The notes under the pieces were generated by a model. It made no database searches and was not told where the DNA came from. It saw nothing but the letters and a program-made list of their open reading frames with translations. The translations under genes were made by a program, and so were the position numbers. From a virus: a stretch of DNA of 32,881 nt. Positions 1-20,256 of this stretch are shown here, in pieces. The stretch lies in IMG/VR virus record IMGVR_UViG_3300044998_000247, positions 1 through 32,881 of that record. One strand, 5' to 3'. The number at the start of each line of letters is the position of its first letter. Position 1 is the stretch's first letter.

Positions 1-3000
1 ACTGATGCACGAACTTGGAGAGCACTTCGGCATCATTCGCCTGCTGGGCGAGGAGCGATACGCCAAGCTGCTGGAAGATCTGCGCGGCATGCGCGACGAC
101 CCAGAAGTGACCAAAGTTTGGGAGCGGGTGGCAAGGAACTACCGCACACAGGACGGCAAGCCCATGTTCAAGGAGGGGGACGAGCGCTTCATGCGTGAAG
201 TGGCCGCCCACCTGGTTGAGGACGCTCCAAACCTGCCATGGGTTCGCAAGCTCATCAACGCTATCCGTGCCGCCCTGTACGAAATTGGGTTGCCTGCTGG
301 CAAGGTGGACGCAAACCTTCTGCGAGGTCTTGCAGCGTCTGCGCTTCGCAAGGCGTCTCAGGGTGACCTCATGGCCATGCGCGAGCCAGTGTGGCAGCGG
401 CAAATGGCCGGGATGGACGATTATTCCATGACCGGTGCAAACGGCCCGCGCGTGTTGGACGAAGAGACGACGGCCGAGTTGCTGACCCGCAAGTTCCTGG
501 ACCGATTCAACCGCGTTGTGAAGGCCCAGGAATTGGCTGGAGACGTGGCAAGCGAGGCGGACATTGTGCAGGCCGACCGTCTGTACCACGGGCGCGTGCA
601 GTACCTGGGTGAGAAACTGAACAGGGATTTCATTGAGCCGCTTGGGGAGTTGCTGAGCAAGGCCAAAGAGTTGGGAGTTTCGGTTAAGGATGCCGATGAT
701 TTTCTGATGGCCCTGCACGCACCGGAGCGAAACCGCGTGATTGCTGCGCGCAACCCAAAAATGCCTGATGGAGGGTCCGGTCTGACCAACCAGCAGGCCC
801 GCGAGATCATTGAGAGCTTTGAGCCGGAGCAGCGCCGCGTGCTTGATCAAGTGGCAAAGCTCGTGCACAAGATGAACCGCGAGAAGCTGGATTTGATGGT
901 GGACGGCGGCCTCATCACGCCAGAGACCCGCGACACACTCAACAGGCAGTATCGTTACTACGTGCCGCTGAAAAGCCTGGATGAGGAGGATGCAGCGCGA
1001 GGGATTGGCCGAGGCTACGAACTGCGCGCAACCGACATCACGACGGCCATGGGGCGCAAGACCAAGGCCGGATCTCCGATTGCCGCCAGTGTGATGGATG
1101 CCAGCCGCGCGATCATGCGCGCAGAAAAAGCGCGCGTGGATCGGGCAATCTGGAACTTTGCCAACAGCGAAGGGGGTAGCGCGTTCATGCGCCCCTACGA
1201 TCCCGAAAACCCGCCGCGCCAAGTCATGGGGCGAAAAATCGGGCCAGACGGAAAGGTCAAGGATGTTGTAGATCCGGTCAAGGTTCAAGAAATGACCATC
1301 AACCTGATGGTGGATGGCGAGACGCGCCGTGTGTTCGTGCCGGACAAACTTTTGCGAGACCAGATCCGCAAGGTGGCCACGGCCGATGACCCCGGCCCAG
1401 TGCTGCGCGCCATTGGCAAAGCCACCGGGATGGTTGGGCGACTCCTGACCGAGTTCAATCCGAACTTCACAATCCCCAACGCTACCCGTGATGCCATCAC
1501 GGTAGCCATTCGCGCCAAGGCTCATGGGGTCAATCCAGGAGAAGTGACGGCCCAGATTCCTGTGGCATGGAAAGCCATCGCCGATTACAAGCGCGGAGCC
1601 GATACTGAACTGGCCAGGCAGTACGAGGAGTTTTTGCGAGAAGGCGGAAAGACGGGCGCCTATGGCATCCGTGGCGTGATCGATACCATGGCCGACCTGG
1701 AGAAGGCTGGCGCCGAACTGGGTTACGACCAATACAAAGCGCCATCGTGGCGCAAGGTGGCCCGCCATCTTGGCAAGGTGGCCAATGCGGTGAGTTCGGC
1801 CAACGAGGTTGTTGAATACGGTGCCCGATTTGCGCTGTATCGCAAGCTGCGCGAGAACGGTGTGAGCGCAAAAGAGGCGGCCGCTGCGGCAAAAGAGGTC
1901 ACTGTCAACTTCAACCGATCTGGCGAATACGGGCGCGCGATGAATTCGCTCTTGGTGTTCGCCAACGCCGCCCTTCAAGGGCTGTACGGGACCATCAAGT
2001 ACATGAAGAACCCCAGCGTGCGACGTGGCATGATGGGATTGGTAGCGTTAGGTGCGGCCACCCAAATGTTCAACGAGTTGCTGGGTGGCGAGAACGAAGA
2101 GACTGGCGAAGCCAATATCAACTCCCAGTCGGATGCGGTTGCAGACAAAAACTTGGTGCTGCTGCTCCCTGGGACCCGTTCCGGCGTGAAGATCCCGCTC
2201 CCGCCCGAGTATTCCTTCCTGTACGGCATTGGCCGCCGCCTGTGGCGACTCTTCAGCCAGGGCGATGTCGAACGGGAGGCCGCAGGGATCGTAGCCAACA
2301 TCCTGGATTCGACGCTGCCTGTGCGAATCCCAGATGCCGATAGCGCCCCCCTGGCAGCGGCCAAGGCCGTAACGCCAACGCTGGCCGCACCATTCGTTGA
2401 CATCTGGACAAATCAAAACTACTTCGGCTCCCCAATCGTGCCTGAGCGCGGATTCGACCAAAGCCCGCCGCCGTACTTCACGATCAGCCGACAGCAGACC
2501 AGCGAACTTGCCAAGGCAGTCAGTGAGTTGCTCAATACCGCAACAGGCGGGGATGAGATCGAGCCTGGCAAGAGCCAGAAATGGCTTGGGCCGCTGGTCT
2601 CTCCAGAGGGGATTGAGCACTTGGTGTCGTTCTACACCGGTGGGCTCGGGCAATTCACGATGCAAATGACCAACTTGGCCAAGCCAGAGAAGCGTGAATT
2701 GAACCGCACGCCAATCGTGAGCCGCTTCGTGTTCACAGAGCCGCAGGGGTACATTGGTCGGCGCTACCGTGAGATCACGCCAGAACTCCAGTACGCCAAA
2801 GACCGCCTGCGCGTTGGCCAAGAGATCCCTGAAAAGCTGGACCGCGCGCTTCCAGAGTTTGAAGCAGCGGAGCGAGAACTGCGAAGGCTCTACCGTGAGA
2901 TGAGGGAGCGCGCCCAGGAAGGGGACACTGTAGGCGTGGAGCAAGCGCGGGCAGAGATCAAGGCGGCACAATCACGGGTGATCAGGGCCTACAACGGCCA

Positions 3001-3013
3001 GCCATTGCAGTGA
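1..3013 (+). CDS. Large polyvalent protein with LPD38-type domain, C-terminal 1002 residues (5' end outside window)
   Basis: The frame is open to the window edge. The first in-window Met is directly preceded by a Leu codon (CTG, bases 2-4), and the first residues read MHELGEHFG, an HExxH metallopeptidase-like motif that normally sits inside a domain, so the true start lies upstream. About residues 640-770 match my recollection of LPD38: an NFNR-GEYGRAMNSLLVFANAALQG segment, then a helix-rich hydrophobic stretch, then KNLVLLLPG and IPLPPEYSFLYGIGR. The C-terminal 120 residues are charged and helical. Proteins of this kind occur in phages and conjugative elements and are thought to be ejected into the host with the DNA. 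That role here is inference. The downstream gene starts within 10 bases of the stop, so it is co-transcribed with the lysis genes. Confidence 0.8.
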   Translation, partial: LMHELGEHFGIIRLLGEERYAKLLEDLRGMRDDPEVTKVWERVARNYRTQDGKPMFKEGDERFMREVAAHLVEDAPNLPWVRKLINAIRAALYEIGLPAGKVDANLLRGLAASALRKASQGDLMAMREPVWQRQMAGMDDYSMTGANGPRVLDEETTAELLTRKFLDRFNRVVKAQELAGDVASEADIVQADRLYHGRVQYLGEKLNRDFIEPLGELLSKAKELGVSVKDADDFLMALHAPERNRVIAARNPKMPDGGSGLTNQQAREIIESFEPEQRRVLDQVAKLVHKMNREKLDLMVDGGLITPETRDTLNRQYRYYVPLKSLDEEDAARGIGRGYELRATDITTAMGRKTKAGSPIAASVMDASRAIMRAEKARVDRAIWNFANSEGGSAFMRPYDPENPPRQVMGRKIGPDGKVKDVVDPVKVQEMTINLMVDGETRRVFVPDKLLRDQIRKVATADDPGPVLRAIGKATGMVGRLLTEFNPNFTIPNATRDAITVAIRAKAHGVNPGEVTAQIPVAWKAIADYKRGADTELARQYEEFLREGGKTGAYGIRGVIDTMADLEKAGAELGYDQYKAPSWRKVARHLGKVANAVSSANEVVEYGARFALYRKLRENGVSAKEAAAAAKEVTVNFNRSGEYGRAMNSLLVFANAALQGLYGTIKYMKNPSVRRGMMGLVALGAATQMFNELLGGENEETGEANINSQSDAVADKNLVLLLPGTRSGVKIPLPPEYSFLYGIGRRLWRLFSQGDVEREAAGIVANILDSTLPVRIPDADSAPLAAAKAVTPTLAAPFVDIWTNQNYFGSPIVPERGFDQSPPPYFTISRQQTSELAKAVSELLNTATGGDEIEPGKSQKWLGPLVSPEGIEHLVSFYTGGLGQFTMQMTNLAKPEKRELNRTPIVSRFVFTEPQGYIGRRYREITPELQYAKDRLRVGQEIPEKLDRALPEFEAAERELRRLYREMRERAQEGDTVGVEQARAEIKAAQSRVIRAYNGQPLQ

Positions 3014-15186: not shown

Positions 15187-16275
15187 ATGGAGACCATTCC
15201 TCTGTGCGAGCAGATCAGGGCGTCACGAGCGCTCTACAAGGCTGCGGCCGAGCGCTTGGACGAGTTGTCTGACGCGGAGCTGGCGCGCTTGTTAGCTGTG
15301 GCAGACGACGCCACGCTGACGCACGCGCTAGCCAGCGCCAATGGCGACACGAAGGTGCGTGCGTTGTCTGCCGCCGACGATCGCGCGCTGACGCGTGTGC
15401 TGACTATCCTCGCCGCCAGCGCGCTGGCGCACGTGCTGCGCACCGCCGACGACCGCACGCTGACGCGCGTGCTGCGCATCGCCGACGACCGTACGCTGGC
15501 GCGTGTGTTGGATGTCGCGTACGACTGCACGCTGACACGCGTGCTGTCCGCCGCAGACGACCGCACGTTGGCGCGTGTGCTGAATGCTGCGGACGCCGCC
15601 ACGCTGATGCGTGTGCTGAATGTTGCAGACGCCGCTACGCTGGCGCGCGTACTGTCTGCCGCCGACGATCGCGCGCTGGCGCGTGTGTTGGATGTCGCGT
15701 ACGACTGCACGCTGACGCGCGTGCTGACTATCCTCGCCGCCAGCACGCTGACGCGCGTGCTGTCTGCCGCCGACGACAGCACGCTGGCGCGCGTTCTGCG
15801 CATCGCTGACGACCGTACGCTGACGCGCGTGCTGTCTGCCGCCGACGACAGCACGCTGGCGCGTGTGCTATCCATTGTGTACGACCGCACGCTAGCGCGC
15901 GTACTGTTCGCCGCTGATGATTGCACGTTGACGCGCGCGCTGAATGTTGCAGACGACGCCACGCTGGTGCGCATTGCGCGCTTCCAATCCCTCGCCATCC
16001 CCATCGTGCTCGACTTGGATAAGAAAGTGGCTGAAGCCGTCGAGCAGCACGGGCTCAATATGGGCCGCTGGCACTGCGGCAGTACCCACTGCCGTTATGG
16101 GTGGGCCATTACGCTTGCGGGTGAAGCGGGCAAAGCGCTAGAGGATGCCGTTGGTCCCGAAATGGCCGGGAGGCTGATTTATGAGGCCAGCACCGGGAGA
16201 GTTGCCCCTGATCCGTATATGCCCAACGAAGAAGCGCTCGCCGACATTCGGCGCTGCGCGCAAGGAGCACATTAA
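15187..16275 (+). CDS. Protein of twenty 12-residue tandem repeats plus a His/Cys C-terminal domain
   Basis: 362 residues. Residues 27-266 are twenty consecutive 12-mers with consensus ADDxTLxRVLxx, alternating LTRVL and LARVL. A few units read LAAS or AYDC at the start. The regular Leu/Val spacing suggests a helical solenoid. Residues 267-362 form a separate domain with MGRWHCGSTHCRYGWAITLAGEAGKALE, LIYEAST and a final ALADIRRCA. I recall this C-terminal module at the end of other phage repeat proteins, including pentapeptide-repeat ones, but know no function. AAAGGAG precedes the ATG. Its stop overlaps the next start (TAATG). Confidence 0.85.
   Translation: METIPLCEQIRASRALYKAAAERLDELSDAELARLLAVADDATLTHALASANGDTKVRALSAADDRALTRVLTILAASALAHVLRTADDRTLTRVLRIADDRTLARVLDVAYDCTLTRVLSAADDRTLARVLNAADAATLMRVLNVADAATLARVLSAADDRALARVLDVAYDCTLTRVLTILAASTLTRVLSAADDSTLARVLRIADDRTLTRVLSAADDSTLARVLSIVYDRTLARVLFAADDCTLTRALNVADDATLVRIARFQSLAIPIVLDLDKKVAEAVEQHGLNMGRWHCGSTHCRYGWAITLAGEAGKALEDAVGPEMAGRLIYEASTGRVAPDPYMPNEEALADIRRCAQGAH
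15265..15984 (+). repeat. 36-bp coding tandem repeat, twenty units
   Basis: Each unit encodes one 12-residue repeat. Nucleotide identity between units is high, for example the DVAYDCTLTRVL unit occurs near 15517 and again near 15697 with almost identical bases, and the TILAAS unit also recurs. This indicates recent duplication of single and multi-unit blocks. Confidence 0.85.
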
Positions 16276-17050: not shown

Positions 17051-17338
17051 ATGTGTGACATCGTGTTGATTAACGGAACGCTGTGCTCTATCCAGATGGA
17101 ATTAATGGATGAGCTTGGTTCTGCTGAGTTAGTCCCGGCGCGTCAATTTGGCTACACAGACGAAGACATAAAGCAGAGTTTATGCCTCTGCCCTGTAGAT
17201 ATTGAGGCCACCGCAAAAAAGCATGGCTATAAATCTATCAAGGTGTTTGATTCAACACACGATTGGAATTTGATTCATGATCCAACTCATCTCCAGCCTA
17301 GCCAAGCTGAAGCTGGCCATGGGGGAAGAGGTGGGTGA
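17051..17338 (+). CDS. Small hypothetical protein
   Basis: 95 residues: MCDIVLINGTLCSIQMELMD, then EDIKQSLCLCPVDIEATAKKHGYKSIKVFD, and a polar C-terminus. GGTGA lies just upstream of the ATG. The stop overlaps the GTG that begins the longest methyltransferase frame. No family recognised. It is the most AT-rich gene of the window. Confidence 0.6.
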   Translation: MCDIVLINGTLCSIQMELMDELGSAELVPARQFGYTDEDIKQSLCLCPVDIEATAKKHGYKSIKVFDSTHDWNLIHDPTHLQPSQAEAGHGGRGG

Positions 17339-18276
17339 CGCTAGCAAAGGCGTTGTGTTCAAGGACTACAAAGTTTGACATGACGGCCTACTACAACGAG
17401 ATCAACCCGTTCGCAGCTCAGTGGCTGCGTAACTTGATTGCTGCCGGTCATATTGCGCCGGGAGACGTGGACGAAAGGAGCATTGAAGATGTCAAACCAG
17501 ATGACCTGCGCGGTTACACCCAGTGCCACTTCTTTGCAGGTATCGGGGTCTGGAGCTACGCCATGCGCCGCGCAGGATGGCACGATGACAGGCCTGTGTG
17601 GACGGGCTCATGCCCGTGCCAACCTTTCTCCGCGGCAGGCAAAAGAAAAGGAACTGCTGACGAGCGGCACCTATGGCCTGCATGGTTCCACCTCATCAAG
17701 CAGTGCCGCCCTGACACGATCTTTGGCGAGCAAGTTGAAACAGCAATCAGGGACGGGTGGCTCGACCTTGTTCAATCTGACTTGGAAGGAAGCGGTTACG
17801 CCGTCGGGGCGGCCGTATTGCCTGCTGCGGGCTTCGGCGCGCCGCACATCCGCCACAGACTGTACTTCGTGGCCGACGCCGACCAGCAGCAATACCACGG
17901 GAGCGGGCAACAGTGGCCGCGAGGGCGGATTGAATTTGCAAACAGCGGCTCAACTGGCAACGTGGCCGACGCCGGTATTGAACGATGCGACCGGCAGCAC
18001 GCACTGCTATGGCAAGAAGAACCCGGACGGAACGAGAGAGAGACTGCTGAAGCTACCGGGCGCGGCGAAACTTGCAGGCCCGGCCCGGTTAACGGCTTCT
18101 GGCGAGATGCTGATTGGATCGGATGCCGTGACGGTAAATGGCGGGCTGTTGAACCCGGCACATTCCCGCTGGTTGATGGGGCTCCCGCAAGAGTGGGACG
18201 CCTGCGCGCCTACGGGAATGCCATCGTCGCGCCTGTCGCGGGAGCGTTCGTGAGGGCTTATCTTCAGGCGCAATAA
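17335..18276 (+). CDS. Cytosine-C5 DNA methyltransferase
   Basis: Up to 313 residues. It should transfer a methyl group from SAM to C5 of cytosine in a specific duplex sequence, protecting phage DNA from host restriction. Motif I is FFAGIG (66-71), motif [11 protein letters not shown] with nucleophile Cys95, motif VI GEQV (131-134; Gln replaces the usual Asn of ENV), motif [16 protein letters not shown], and motifs [23 protein letters not shown]. The target recognition part between VIII and IX is short and unusual in composition because a second reading frame overlaps it. The GTG at 17335 couples to the upstream stop. An ATG at 17380 ([11 protein letters not shown]) better fits the N-termini I remember. 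Confidence 0.9.
17489..18253 (+). CDS. Overprinted protein in the +1 frame of the methyltransferase gene
   Basis: 254 residues read entirely within the methyltransferase gene. The ATG at 17489 has AAAGGAG at 17474-17480, an ideal ribosome site in the middle of another coding sequence, and the frame then stays open for 765 bases. The product is rich in Ser, Thr, Ala and Pro. It contains [29 protein letters not shown], repeated SWPTP/TWPTP units, [11 protein letters not shown], and [17 protein letters not shown] near the C-terminus. I recall phage proteins with the same order of signatures, mostly labelled hypothetical or methyltransferase. This supports a true gene. Function unknown, perhaps connected with the methyltransferase. 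Confidence 0.65.
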
Positions 18277-18288
18277 TGGAAGACGAAC

Positions 18289-18867
18289 GTGAAAAAATCA
18301 CGCAAGTGCAAGATCTGCCGGACCGAGTTTGCCCCGAGGAACTCAATGCAAACGATTTGCGGCAACATTGCTTGCGCGGTGGCAATGGCACAAAGAGCCA
18401 AGGCCAAACGAGAGGCGGCGCAGGCCAGGGCCGCGAAGAAGGCCGACAAGTCGAAGCGTGAGGCCCTGAAGACGTGGAGCGACTGGAATCGAGAGGCCCA
18501 AGCGTGGTTCAACCGATGGGTGAGAGAGCGCGACCACGGGAAGCCCTGCATCTGCTGCGGGGGGATGCCGGAGCGAGGCTGGCTCACAGGTGGCGAATGG
18601 GATGCAGGGCACTATCGTTCCAGGGGATCGGCACCACACCTTCGGTTTGACCCGAGGAACTGCCACGCTCAACTGAAGCGATGCAACCGGCGCACATGGG
18701 ACGTGGCCGGTTACCGCAGGAACCTCATTGAGCGGATCGGCCTGGCCGAGGTTGAGGCGCTGGAAGCAGACCAGACACCGAGGAAATACACTATTCAGGA
18801 TCTGAAAGAGTTGCGAGACTACTACCGGGCCGAGGCACAGCGTTTGAAGAAGGAGCGGTCTGGATGA
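18289..18867 (+). CDS. ninG: NinG/Rap-like recombination nuclease
   Basis: 192 residues. The N-terminus has the NinG zinc motif KSRKCKICRTEFAPRNSMQ with a further Cys-rich turn (TICGNIACA). A long basic Ala-rich helix follows, then ERDHGKPCICCGGMP and WDAGHYRSRGSAPHLRFDPRNCHAQLKRCN, the conserved core. In lambda, NinG (Rap) cleaves Holliday junctions and D-loops in Red recombination. The start is a GTG at 18289, 12 bases after the methyltransferase stop, and the stop overlaps the next ATG. Confidence 0.92.
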   Translation: MKKSRKCKICRTEFAPRNSMQTICGNIACAVAMAQRAKAKREAAQARAAKKADKSKREALKTWSDWNREAQAWFNRWVRERDHGKPCICCGGMPERGWLTGGEWDAGHYRSRGSAPHLRFDPRNCHAQLKRCNRRTWDVAGYRRNLIERIGLAEVEALEADQTPRKYTIQDLKELRDYYRAEAQRLKKERSG

Positions 18868-19067
18868 CATACGATGAGCACATAGAGGACGTGTGCCAGC
18901 GCGCCATTCAGGCGAGAGGCCAATCGCCCCTTGGCATTTACACCAGAACCGGACACAAGAAGGTGATGGTCGGCCTCGCCAGGCCCGATCACGCATGGGT
19001 GATGGAGATTGACATCACTGAGTACGACGGGCGGCGCTTGCTGGAATTGGCCGGGGTGAGCTTGTGA
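18864..19067 (+). CDS. Small hypothetical protein
   Basis: 67 residues (MTYDEHIEDVCQRAIQARGQSPLGIYTRTGHKKVMVGLAR...), with an N-terminal helix and a likely small beta sheet. Coupled by ATGA to ninG and by GTGA to the next gene. No family recognised. Confidence 0.6.
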   Translation: MTYDEHIEDVCQRAIQARGQSPLGIYTRTGHKKVMVGLARPDHAWVMEIDITEYDGRRLLELAGVSL

Positions 19068-19663
19068 AGAACTCCCCGAACTGGCAATGGGAGACCGTGG
19101 CCGTTATCGCCACCGGCCCAAGCCTGACAAGAGAGCAGTGCGAGATCGTCAGGGATAAGGGATGGAAGATCCTTGCCGTATCAAACGCCTACCGCATGGC
19201 CCCGTGGTGTGATGTGATCTATGCGGGAGACCTGAACTGGTGGAAAACCTATGAGCGCGAGGCGCGAGAAACCTCGCCGCAAGCTGCATTGTGGACATGC
19301 TCAAACACGGCGGCTGCCAGGTTCAATCTGAACTTCGTCCAGGGCAACAACAGCAAGGGTCTTGGGCACGCCATCATTCACACCAATGGGAACTCCGGTT
19401 CCCAGGCGATCAATCTGGCTTACCTGTGGGGGGCCAAGAAGATGAGGCTCCTTGGTTTCGACATGAAGCCCGGTGAGGATGGGGCAAAGCATTTCTTTGG
19501 GAACCATCCCCCCAGGCTGGTGCAGCAGATGCTTTTCGCCGAGTGGATCAAGCGATTGAAGCCCGTGGCCGAGGATCTTGCCAAGCGAGGTGTGGAAGTG
19601 ATCAACTGCACACCAGGCAGCGCGCTGCCGTGGTTTCCGATGACTGACGTGAGGGACCTATGA
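19064..19663 (+). CDS. MptE/DUF115-like phage protein, copy 1
   Basis: 199 residues. VAVIATGPSLTREQCEIV near the start, the ILAVSNAYRMAPWCDVIYAGDLNWW segment, and SGSQAINLAYLWGAKKMRLLGFDMK are the pattern of phage proteins related to DUF115 (MptE-like). In archaea that family includes 6-hydroxymethylpterin diphosphokinase. In bacteria, members sit in glycan and flagellin-modification loci. The phage role is unknown, and I infer a nucleotide- or sugar-linked modification. The GTG start overlaps the previous stop. The next gene is a clear paralogue. Confidence 0.75.
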   Translation: MKNSPNWQWETVAVIATGPSLTREQCEIVRDKGWKILAVSNAYRMAPWCDVIYAGDLNWWKTYEREARETSPQAALWTCSNTAAARFNLNFVQGNNSKGLGHAIIHTNGNSGSQAINLAYLWGAKKMRLLGFDMKPGEDGAKHFFGNHPPRLVQQMLFAEWIKRLKPVAEDLAKRGVEVINCTPGSALPWFPMTDVRDL

Positions 19664-20256
19664 GAGAGTGGGAAGGCCAAACCGTGGCAATCCTGGCATC
19701 AGGGCCAAGCATGTGCCAGGAAGACGCAGACTATGTGCGTGGGAAGGCCCGGGTGATCGTGGTGAACACTACATTCCGGCTCGCACTGTGGTCAGACAAG
19801 CTCTACACCAACGATCATGATTGGCTGGCCGCTCACAAGGCAGAACTCGACGCCACGTTTCAGGGGCAGATCGTGTGCGGACATTCGGCATGGTCGGGGG
19901 TGGATGAGGTTTACCACTGGCCTTTCGACAAAAACGCCAAGGGCCTATGGGCAAAGCCTGGGCACATTGCCTGGGGGATGAATTCCGGCGCGGCCGCTCT
20001 CAGCCTTGCACACCAGCTTGGTGCGAGCAAGATCATCTTGCTTGGCTACGATCAGCAGTGGCGAGGAGATCAGCCAAGGTGGCACGGCTGGCACCCGGAA
20101 GGATTGCAGAACCAGAAGCCTGGATTCCACCGCTGGGCCAAGTGGTTCCATGCCGCTGCCAAGGATTTTCGACTGCTAGGGATCCCGGTCATCAATTGCA
20201 GCCGGGAAACCAGTCTGACGTGCTTCTCGCGCCGCCCACTGAGGGAGGCTCTTTGA
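19660..20256 (+). CDS. MptE/DUF115-like phage protein, copy 2
   Basis: 198 residues, the same architecture as its upstream neighbour: VAILASGPSMCQEDADYV, IVVNTTFRLALWSDKLYTNDHDWL, WGMNSGAAALSLAHQLGASKIILLGYDQQW, then a C-terminal helix and IPVINCSRETSLTCF matching VEVINCTPGSALPWF in copy 1. The pair arose by tandem duplication but has diverged greatly in the middle. It may form heterodimers or act on a different substrate. The ATG overlaps the stop of copy 1, and its own stop overlaps the glycosyltransferase start. Confidence 0.75.
   Translation: MREWEGQTVAILASGPSMCQEDADYVRGKARVIVVNTTFRLALWSDKLYTNDHDWLAAHKAELDATFQGQIVCGHSAWSGVDEVYHWPFDKNAKGLWAKPGHIAWGMNSGAAALSLAHQLGASKIILLGYDQQWRGDQPRWHGWHPEGLQNQKPGFHRWAKWFHAAAKDFRLLGIPVINCSRETSLTCFSRRPLREAL

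Follow-up and report, generated by a model that had tools for sequence, protein, structure and literature searches.

A second gene lies in the +1 frame of a phage C5-cytosine methyltransferase

The window, meaning the whole 32,881-nucleotide stretch of viral DNA analyzed here, carries a C5-cytosine methyltransferase (MTase) gene at 17335..18276 on the plus strand, whose frame is described here as frame 0 and whose product, the putative alpha subunit, matches PF00145 (5e-18) and phrog_363 (7.5e-93). Its GTG at 17335 overlaps the preceding stop codon, and conserved homology runs from an ATG at 17380 onward. Within this ORF an ATG at 17489, preceded at a distance of 8 nt by the Shine-Dalgarno (SD) sequence AAAGGAG (17474..17480, plus strand), opens the +1 frame for 254 codons as far as a TGA at 18251-18253. 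The resulting product of 254 aa (17489..18253, plus strand), the putative beta subunit, matches phrog_1008 over residues 3-252 and nearly the whole family profile (positions 8-295 of 329, E 2.1e-31). Start, SD sequence and open frame were thus as the original prediction had described them, and all of the peptide segments that it quoted from the +1 product are found in the translation.

Several other features of the window were recorded. Directly downstream of the MTase, within 18289-20256, lies a gene for a NinG recombination protein (PF05766, 2.9e-49), followed at 19064-20256 by two tandem, weakly MptE-like proteins. An LPD38 large polyvalent protein domain (4.3e-32) is present in the 1002-aa protein encoded at 5-3013. 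Upstream, 15187-16275 on the plus strand encodes a protein built on ~17 tandem 36-bp repeats (12 aa, ADDxTLxRVL) with weak matches to MgtE_N and FliG_C; the antisense strand of this repeat gene (15234-16058, minus) is also open, for 274 codons.

Frame 0 encodes the catalytic motifs

The alpha chain features motifs I, IV, VI and VIII in the order characteristic of C5-cytosine MTases: motif I (CHFFAGIG) at 17524..17547 and motif IV with the catalytic Cys (TGSCPCQPF, including PCQ) at 17602..17628, both by sequence and alignment, and motif VIII at 17845..17874, by sequence and hhalign, all in frame 0 of the plus strand. Motif X (GNAIV) follows at 18190..18225 in the same frame, by sequence and the AF2 model. 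When aligned with canonical C5-MTases by hhalign, alpha matches over residues 47-183, ending after motif VIII; likewise, the TIGR00675 match of alphas from sister loci covers positions 25-182 and ends after the same motif. Neither profile matches nor hhalign detected a motif IX in frame 0, and the alpha chain was found to carry no target-recognition domain with motif IX between motifs VIII and X. Of the motifs originally assigned to the MTase, I, IV, VI, VIII and X therefore stand in frame 0, while IX does not; a motif-IX-like segment, identified by profile and hhalign comparison, is instead found in the +1 product (18149..18196, plus strand). The AF2 model of alpha comprises a confident HhaI-like large domain and an ordered motif X helix, with HhaI and HaeIII as best PDB matches, and is structureless at residues ~188-248 (pLDDT 36-43). 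The stretch between motifs VIII and X is thus predicted to be a disordered linker.

The +1 frame is under selection

To establish how general this arrangement is, IMG/VR loci were collected both via the +1 protein (66) and via the MTase (36). Both genes are present and overlapping in every one of them, and except in a few loci with an indel or insertion, the frame of the +1 product leads that of the MTase by one base. The relative phase of alpha and beta is unchanged in a further 86 loci, of which 80 are bacterial and the rest are the window's copy and phage records. As a null model, synonymous codons were permuted within each MTase, which keeps its protein and codon usage. The loci are kin, so P values that assume independence are too small, and contrasts between frames and regions within a locus are unaffected by this kinship. 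Across 26 distinct IMG/VR loci reached via the MTase only, the +1 frame contains 35 stops against 132.5 expected, while the +2 frame of the same loci, serving as control, contains 351 against 352.6. In long members the +1 frame is open across 400-500 codons. Third bases tell the same story from the other side: in 60 dereplicated MTases they are random at conserved residues up to residue ~65, and hardly vary between ~97 and ~291, as for P126 (CCT in 60/60), V134 (GTT in 59/59) and G158 (GGG in 55/55).

The start of the +1 gene was assessed by searching for an SD sequence of at least 4 bases together with a start codon in +1, around MTase residues 38-62. Of 147 distinct loci, 124 have such a pair; synonymous permutation predicts 35.8, which makes the enrichment 3.5-fold. 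The start varies among loci, the ATG lying at the window's position, 12 nt later or 18 nt earlier; some members feature a stop right after the main +1 ATG, so their start must be the one 12 nt later. The SD sequence and start in the +1 frame are under selection.

The +1-frame ORF is real and under strong selection, and an origin by chance or codon bias is rejected. Overprinting had been proposed on the strength of the single sequence, to be checked in homologs by +1 stops, by conservation of the SD sequence and start, and by synonymous variation; on each count the homologs agree with it, since their +1 frame stays open, the SD sequence and start are kept, and synonymous sites show extreme suppression.

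Coding load alternates between the two frames

The third-base test was also reversed. Among conserved +1 residues, randomness of the third base is confined to beta ~129-200, which corresponds to the interval between motifs VIII and X, and frame 0 is therefore unconstrained there. Substitution patterns, analyzed initially in 26 pairs and finally in 36 independent pairs, agree with this. At positions 1/2/3 of frame 0, the number of substitutions per codon is.10/.06/.32 before the overlap. In the VIII-X interval it is.33/.19/.21, and the rate thus peaks where the +1 codon has its third base, which is the mark of +1 coding; the two regions differ with a chi-square P of 3e-49. In the segments flanking this interval substitutions are held down at all codon positions.

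Functional coding load hence alternates between the frames along the gene. Alpha residues 1-96 are constrained in frame 0 only, 97-180 in both frames, 181-250 in +1 only, 251-292 again in both, and the remainder in frame 0 only. The first dual-coding segment spans 17623..17874 on the plus strand (alpha 97-180, beta ~46-128), and contains the beta core L..SLASKL ... LRASARRTS. The gain of a second protein, as the original prediction put it, is probably not how the C-terminal half arose, since the +1 frame there looks like the small domain of the original enzyme.

Beta carries shuffled cassettes and a motif-IX-like segment

Nearly all betas feature in the VIII-X interval between 1 and 9 tandem units, each starting with W-P-T-P or a variant and with a median length of 34 aa. 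In the window this putative target-recognition interval (17870..18076, plus strand) comprises two such cassettes, the first at 17870-17962 and the second from 17963 on, and frame 0 is passive across it. Between loci whose alpha N-terminal (catalytic) parts are at most 70% identical, 263 cassette pairs were found to be at least 60% identical, 157 of them at different positions in the array. Identity across 93 cassette pairs is 0.89 in +1 versus 0.60 in frame 0 of the same DNA, and their substitutions fall mostly on the third +1 codon position (360/219/1115 at positions 1/2/3). The WPTP cassettes are shuffled between distant loci. Target-recognition domains of multispecific C5-MTases have this appearance, being short, shuffled cassettes located between motifs VIII and IX, and by this analogy the WPTP cassettes may be target-recognition units.

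The motif-IX-like segment comes after the cassette array, and its position and residues fit motif IX. A profile of this beta motif returned only 5 matches at E up to 10 among all PDB sequences, one of which is residues 272-287 of M.HhaI (RKLHPRECARVMGYPD), the motif IX of that enzyme, at a non-significant E of 2.2. When beta was compared by hhalign with a small set of canonical MTases, its best place was likewise motif IX, again without significance (E 0.17). Canonical MTases did not stand out among 2,803 ORFs searched with the motif-IX profile.

Beta matches phrog_1008, and the +1 frame has therefore already been called as a gene in other phages; its C-terminal half also matches phrog_31772. 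The label 'DNA methyltransferase' of both families is borrowed, as the +1 product is without a catalytic MTase motif. Searches of beta against Pfam, NCBIfam and PDB sequences gave no match. Modeled alone, beta is predicted poorly (pLDDT 60, pTM 0.28), and Foldseek returned no meaningful PDB match for this model. Phages K1ind2 and fTaEco03 annotate both frames, with the +1 product given as a 'Putative Mte8-like protein' overlapping the MTase; pursuing the name 'Mte8' gave no useful lead on the +1 product. Of the many GenBank phage records with a match, most have a single feature annotated there.

The two-frame layout is widespread and recurs in a distant MTase class

Strict patterns identified 193 phage records and, in bacterial genomes, 195 relatives; the bacteria are mostly Pseudomonadota, and these relatives are probably prophages. 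Moreover, a distant Dcm-like class, found starting from Mycobacterium phage Rhynn, features the same two-frame layout, with more than 600 candidates in IMG/VR. In 80 loci of this class taken by the MTase alone, the +1 frame contains 31 stops against 265.5 expected, and the +2 frame 558 against 483.6. By a strict motif pattern, the motif-IX-like segment is found in +1 in 51/80 of these loci, nearly always 21-23 residues before the frame-0 GN, and in frame 0 in 0/80; 16 of the other 29 were inspected by eye, and nearly all feature a looser form in the same place.

Broken loci occur in two forms. L180, an Arsenophonus pseudogene, has lost both frames alike, whereas in two loci, L106 (Pseudomonas phage PMG1) and L121, alpha is broken and beta intact. 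In PMG1 an extra GATC repeat unit (L106, 2979-3000) frameshifts the MTase near its N terminus and +1 remains open; its annotation has the +1 frame only. Loci of this second form could hint at a separate role of beta or at recent decay.

A few loci show fusions. Beta lacks a stop in L081:2589-3923, where it continues in frame as an endonuclease VII-like HNH protein, and in L096:2610-4085, where it continues as a DPPW-type adenine MTase. An indel in the recognition interval of Krischvirus LF73P4 (L220) fuses the +1 frame to the frame-0 C terminus; the related phage Delraymugoa (L219) is intact.

Comparison with known methyltransferases

The multispecific C5-MTases of Bacillus phages (SPbeta, phi3T) feature, between motifs VIII and IX, a tandem series of several short target-recognition domains. 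Those domains share the chain and frame of the catalytic motifs, whereas the cassettes described here lie in the +1 frame, and no single polypeptide of the window holds both cassettes and catalytic motifs.

The closest likeness is to M.EcoHK31I, in which the gene for the large subunit (~309 aa) contains, in a different frame, that for the small one (~176 aa). M.EcoHK31I (YGGCCR) is reportedly a two-polypeptide C5-MTase, said to go back to Lee, Kam & Shaw in 1995. According to a later article, its large polypeptide carries motifs I-VIII and X, only motif IX resides on the second polypeptide, and the predicted target-recognition domain is placed on the large subunit (PMC3404938). Alpha resembles such a large subunit, with motifs I-VIII and X and without IX, and it too is accompanied by a second polypeptide from an overlapping frame. 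The present system differs in that, on evolutionary evidence, recognition is assigned to the +1 subunit, where it takes the form of an array of shuffled cassettes, and in that it is phage-borne and widespread. We liken the window to M.EcoHK31I rather than filing it as a proven member of the type. Literature searches turned up the arrangement nowhere beyond M.EcoHK31I, relative to which target-recognition cassettes on the second subunit would be new.

M.AquI is likewise one C5-MTase formed from two polypeptides, with motifs IX and X both on the second (PMC3404938). Here, in contrast, motif X (GNAIV) is in frame 0 rather than on the second polypeptide, and the two genes share most of their length. 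Phage ShiLan offers another likeness, a second protein read out of frame inside a phage methylase gene, in that case an HNH protein (PMC11855218). The second frame in ShiLan is an inserted homing endonuclease, whereas here it overlaps the conserved MTase core.

A probable two-subunit enzyme encoded by overlapping frames

Both frames are selected, and the VIII-X interval is encoded in +1. The cassettes and motif-IX-like segment lie in +1 and the alpha profile match ends at motif VIII, which is why we regard alpha as catalytic and beta as the source of cassettes and motif IX. The locus very probably encodes, in two overlapping frames, the two subunits of a C5-cytosine MTase whose mode of action is that of M.EcoHK31I. 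The catalytic alpha, comprising motifs I-VIII, a disordered linker and motif X, would come from frame 0, while the internal SD sequence and ATG would start the +1 frame to yield beta, comprising a dual-coded N-terminal part, the WPTP target-recognition array and the motif-IX-like segment. The two would then assemble in trans to rebuild the usual enzyme of large and small domain, with beta reading the DNA site and alpha flipping and methylating the cytosine. Such an enzyme would most likely shield phage DNA from host restriction.

Three other readings were weighed against this model. The +1 ORF could be no gene at all but a side effect of GC-rich codon usage combined with conservation of the MTase: a GC content of ~60% raises the odds of long chance ORFs, and the window by itself gives only P = 0.004 for an equally long +1 opening under synonymous permutation. 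Yet open +1 frames also occur in phages of 45-51% GC (L219, P 0.0005; L221, P 0.001; L224, P 0.0005), the synonymous permutations and their +2 control speak against it, and this reading is already refuted by stop depletion, third-base invariance, the +1-type substitution pattern and the cassette-pair identities, which leaves it practically no probability. A programmed +1 ribosomal frameshift near motif VIII would reach the same segment, producing besides the frame-0 product a single chain in which motifs I-VIII are followed by the target-recognition region and motif IX. The functional reading does move to +1 around motif VIII, and in some members the usual start lacks a strong SD sequence; nevertheless, a shift at that point needs neither the enriched SD sequence and start nor the ~80 codons of constrained +1 frame upstream of motif VIII, and its product would be without motif X. 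We consider frameshifting very improbable.

The third reading accepts beta as a functional protein and separates it from methylation, with a counter-defense or regulatory role, for example, on top of an ordinary MTase. The intact betas of PMG1 and L121 fit such a role, as does the lack of a recognized database domain in beta. However, alpha has no small domain of its own, beta occurs at the same phase in two MTase classes, its motif resembles IX, and its shuffled cassettes sit where MTases keep their target-recognition domains; an unconnected beta is thus very improbable.

A role for the +1 product as a partner of the MTase, which the original prediction had raised as a possibility, is the best-supported function. 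Extending the two-subunit model, we think it likely that a large part of phage C5-MTases, spread over two or more distant alpha classes, are enzymes of this two-frame kind, in which frame 0 provides catalysis and +1 specificity (~34-aa cassettes and motif IX), such that specificities evolve almost free of the catalytic frame.

Overlapping genes on the same strand are usually isolated oddities for which the evidence is weak. Here, a single architecture is found again and again, in hundreds of phage and prophage loci, and the evidence is very strong; the system therefore offers a test bed for the evolution of dual coding. It also explains families such as phrog_1008, which bear a methyltransferase label without catalytic motifs, and shows that annotation often retains just one frame of the pair. 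Should the cassettes be target-recognition domains, swapping units of ~34 aa could reassign the methylated sequence, and many 'orphan' phage methyltransferases would have a specificity subunit that has been overlooked.
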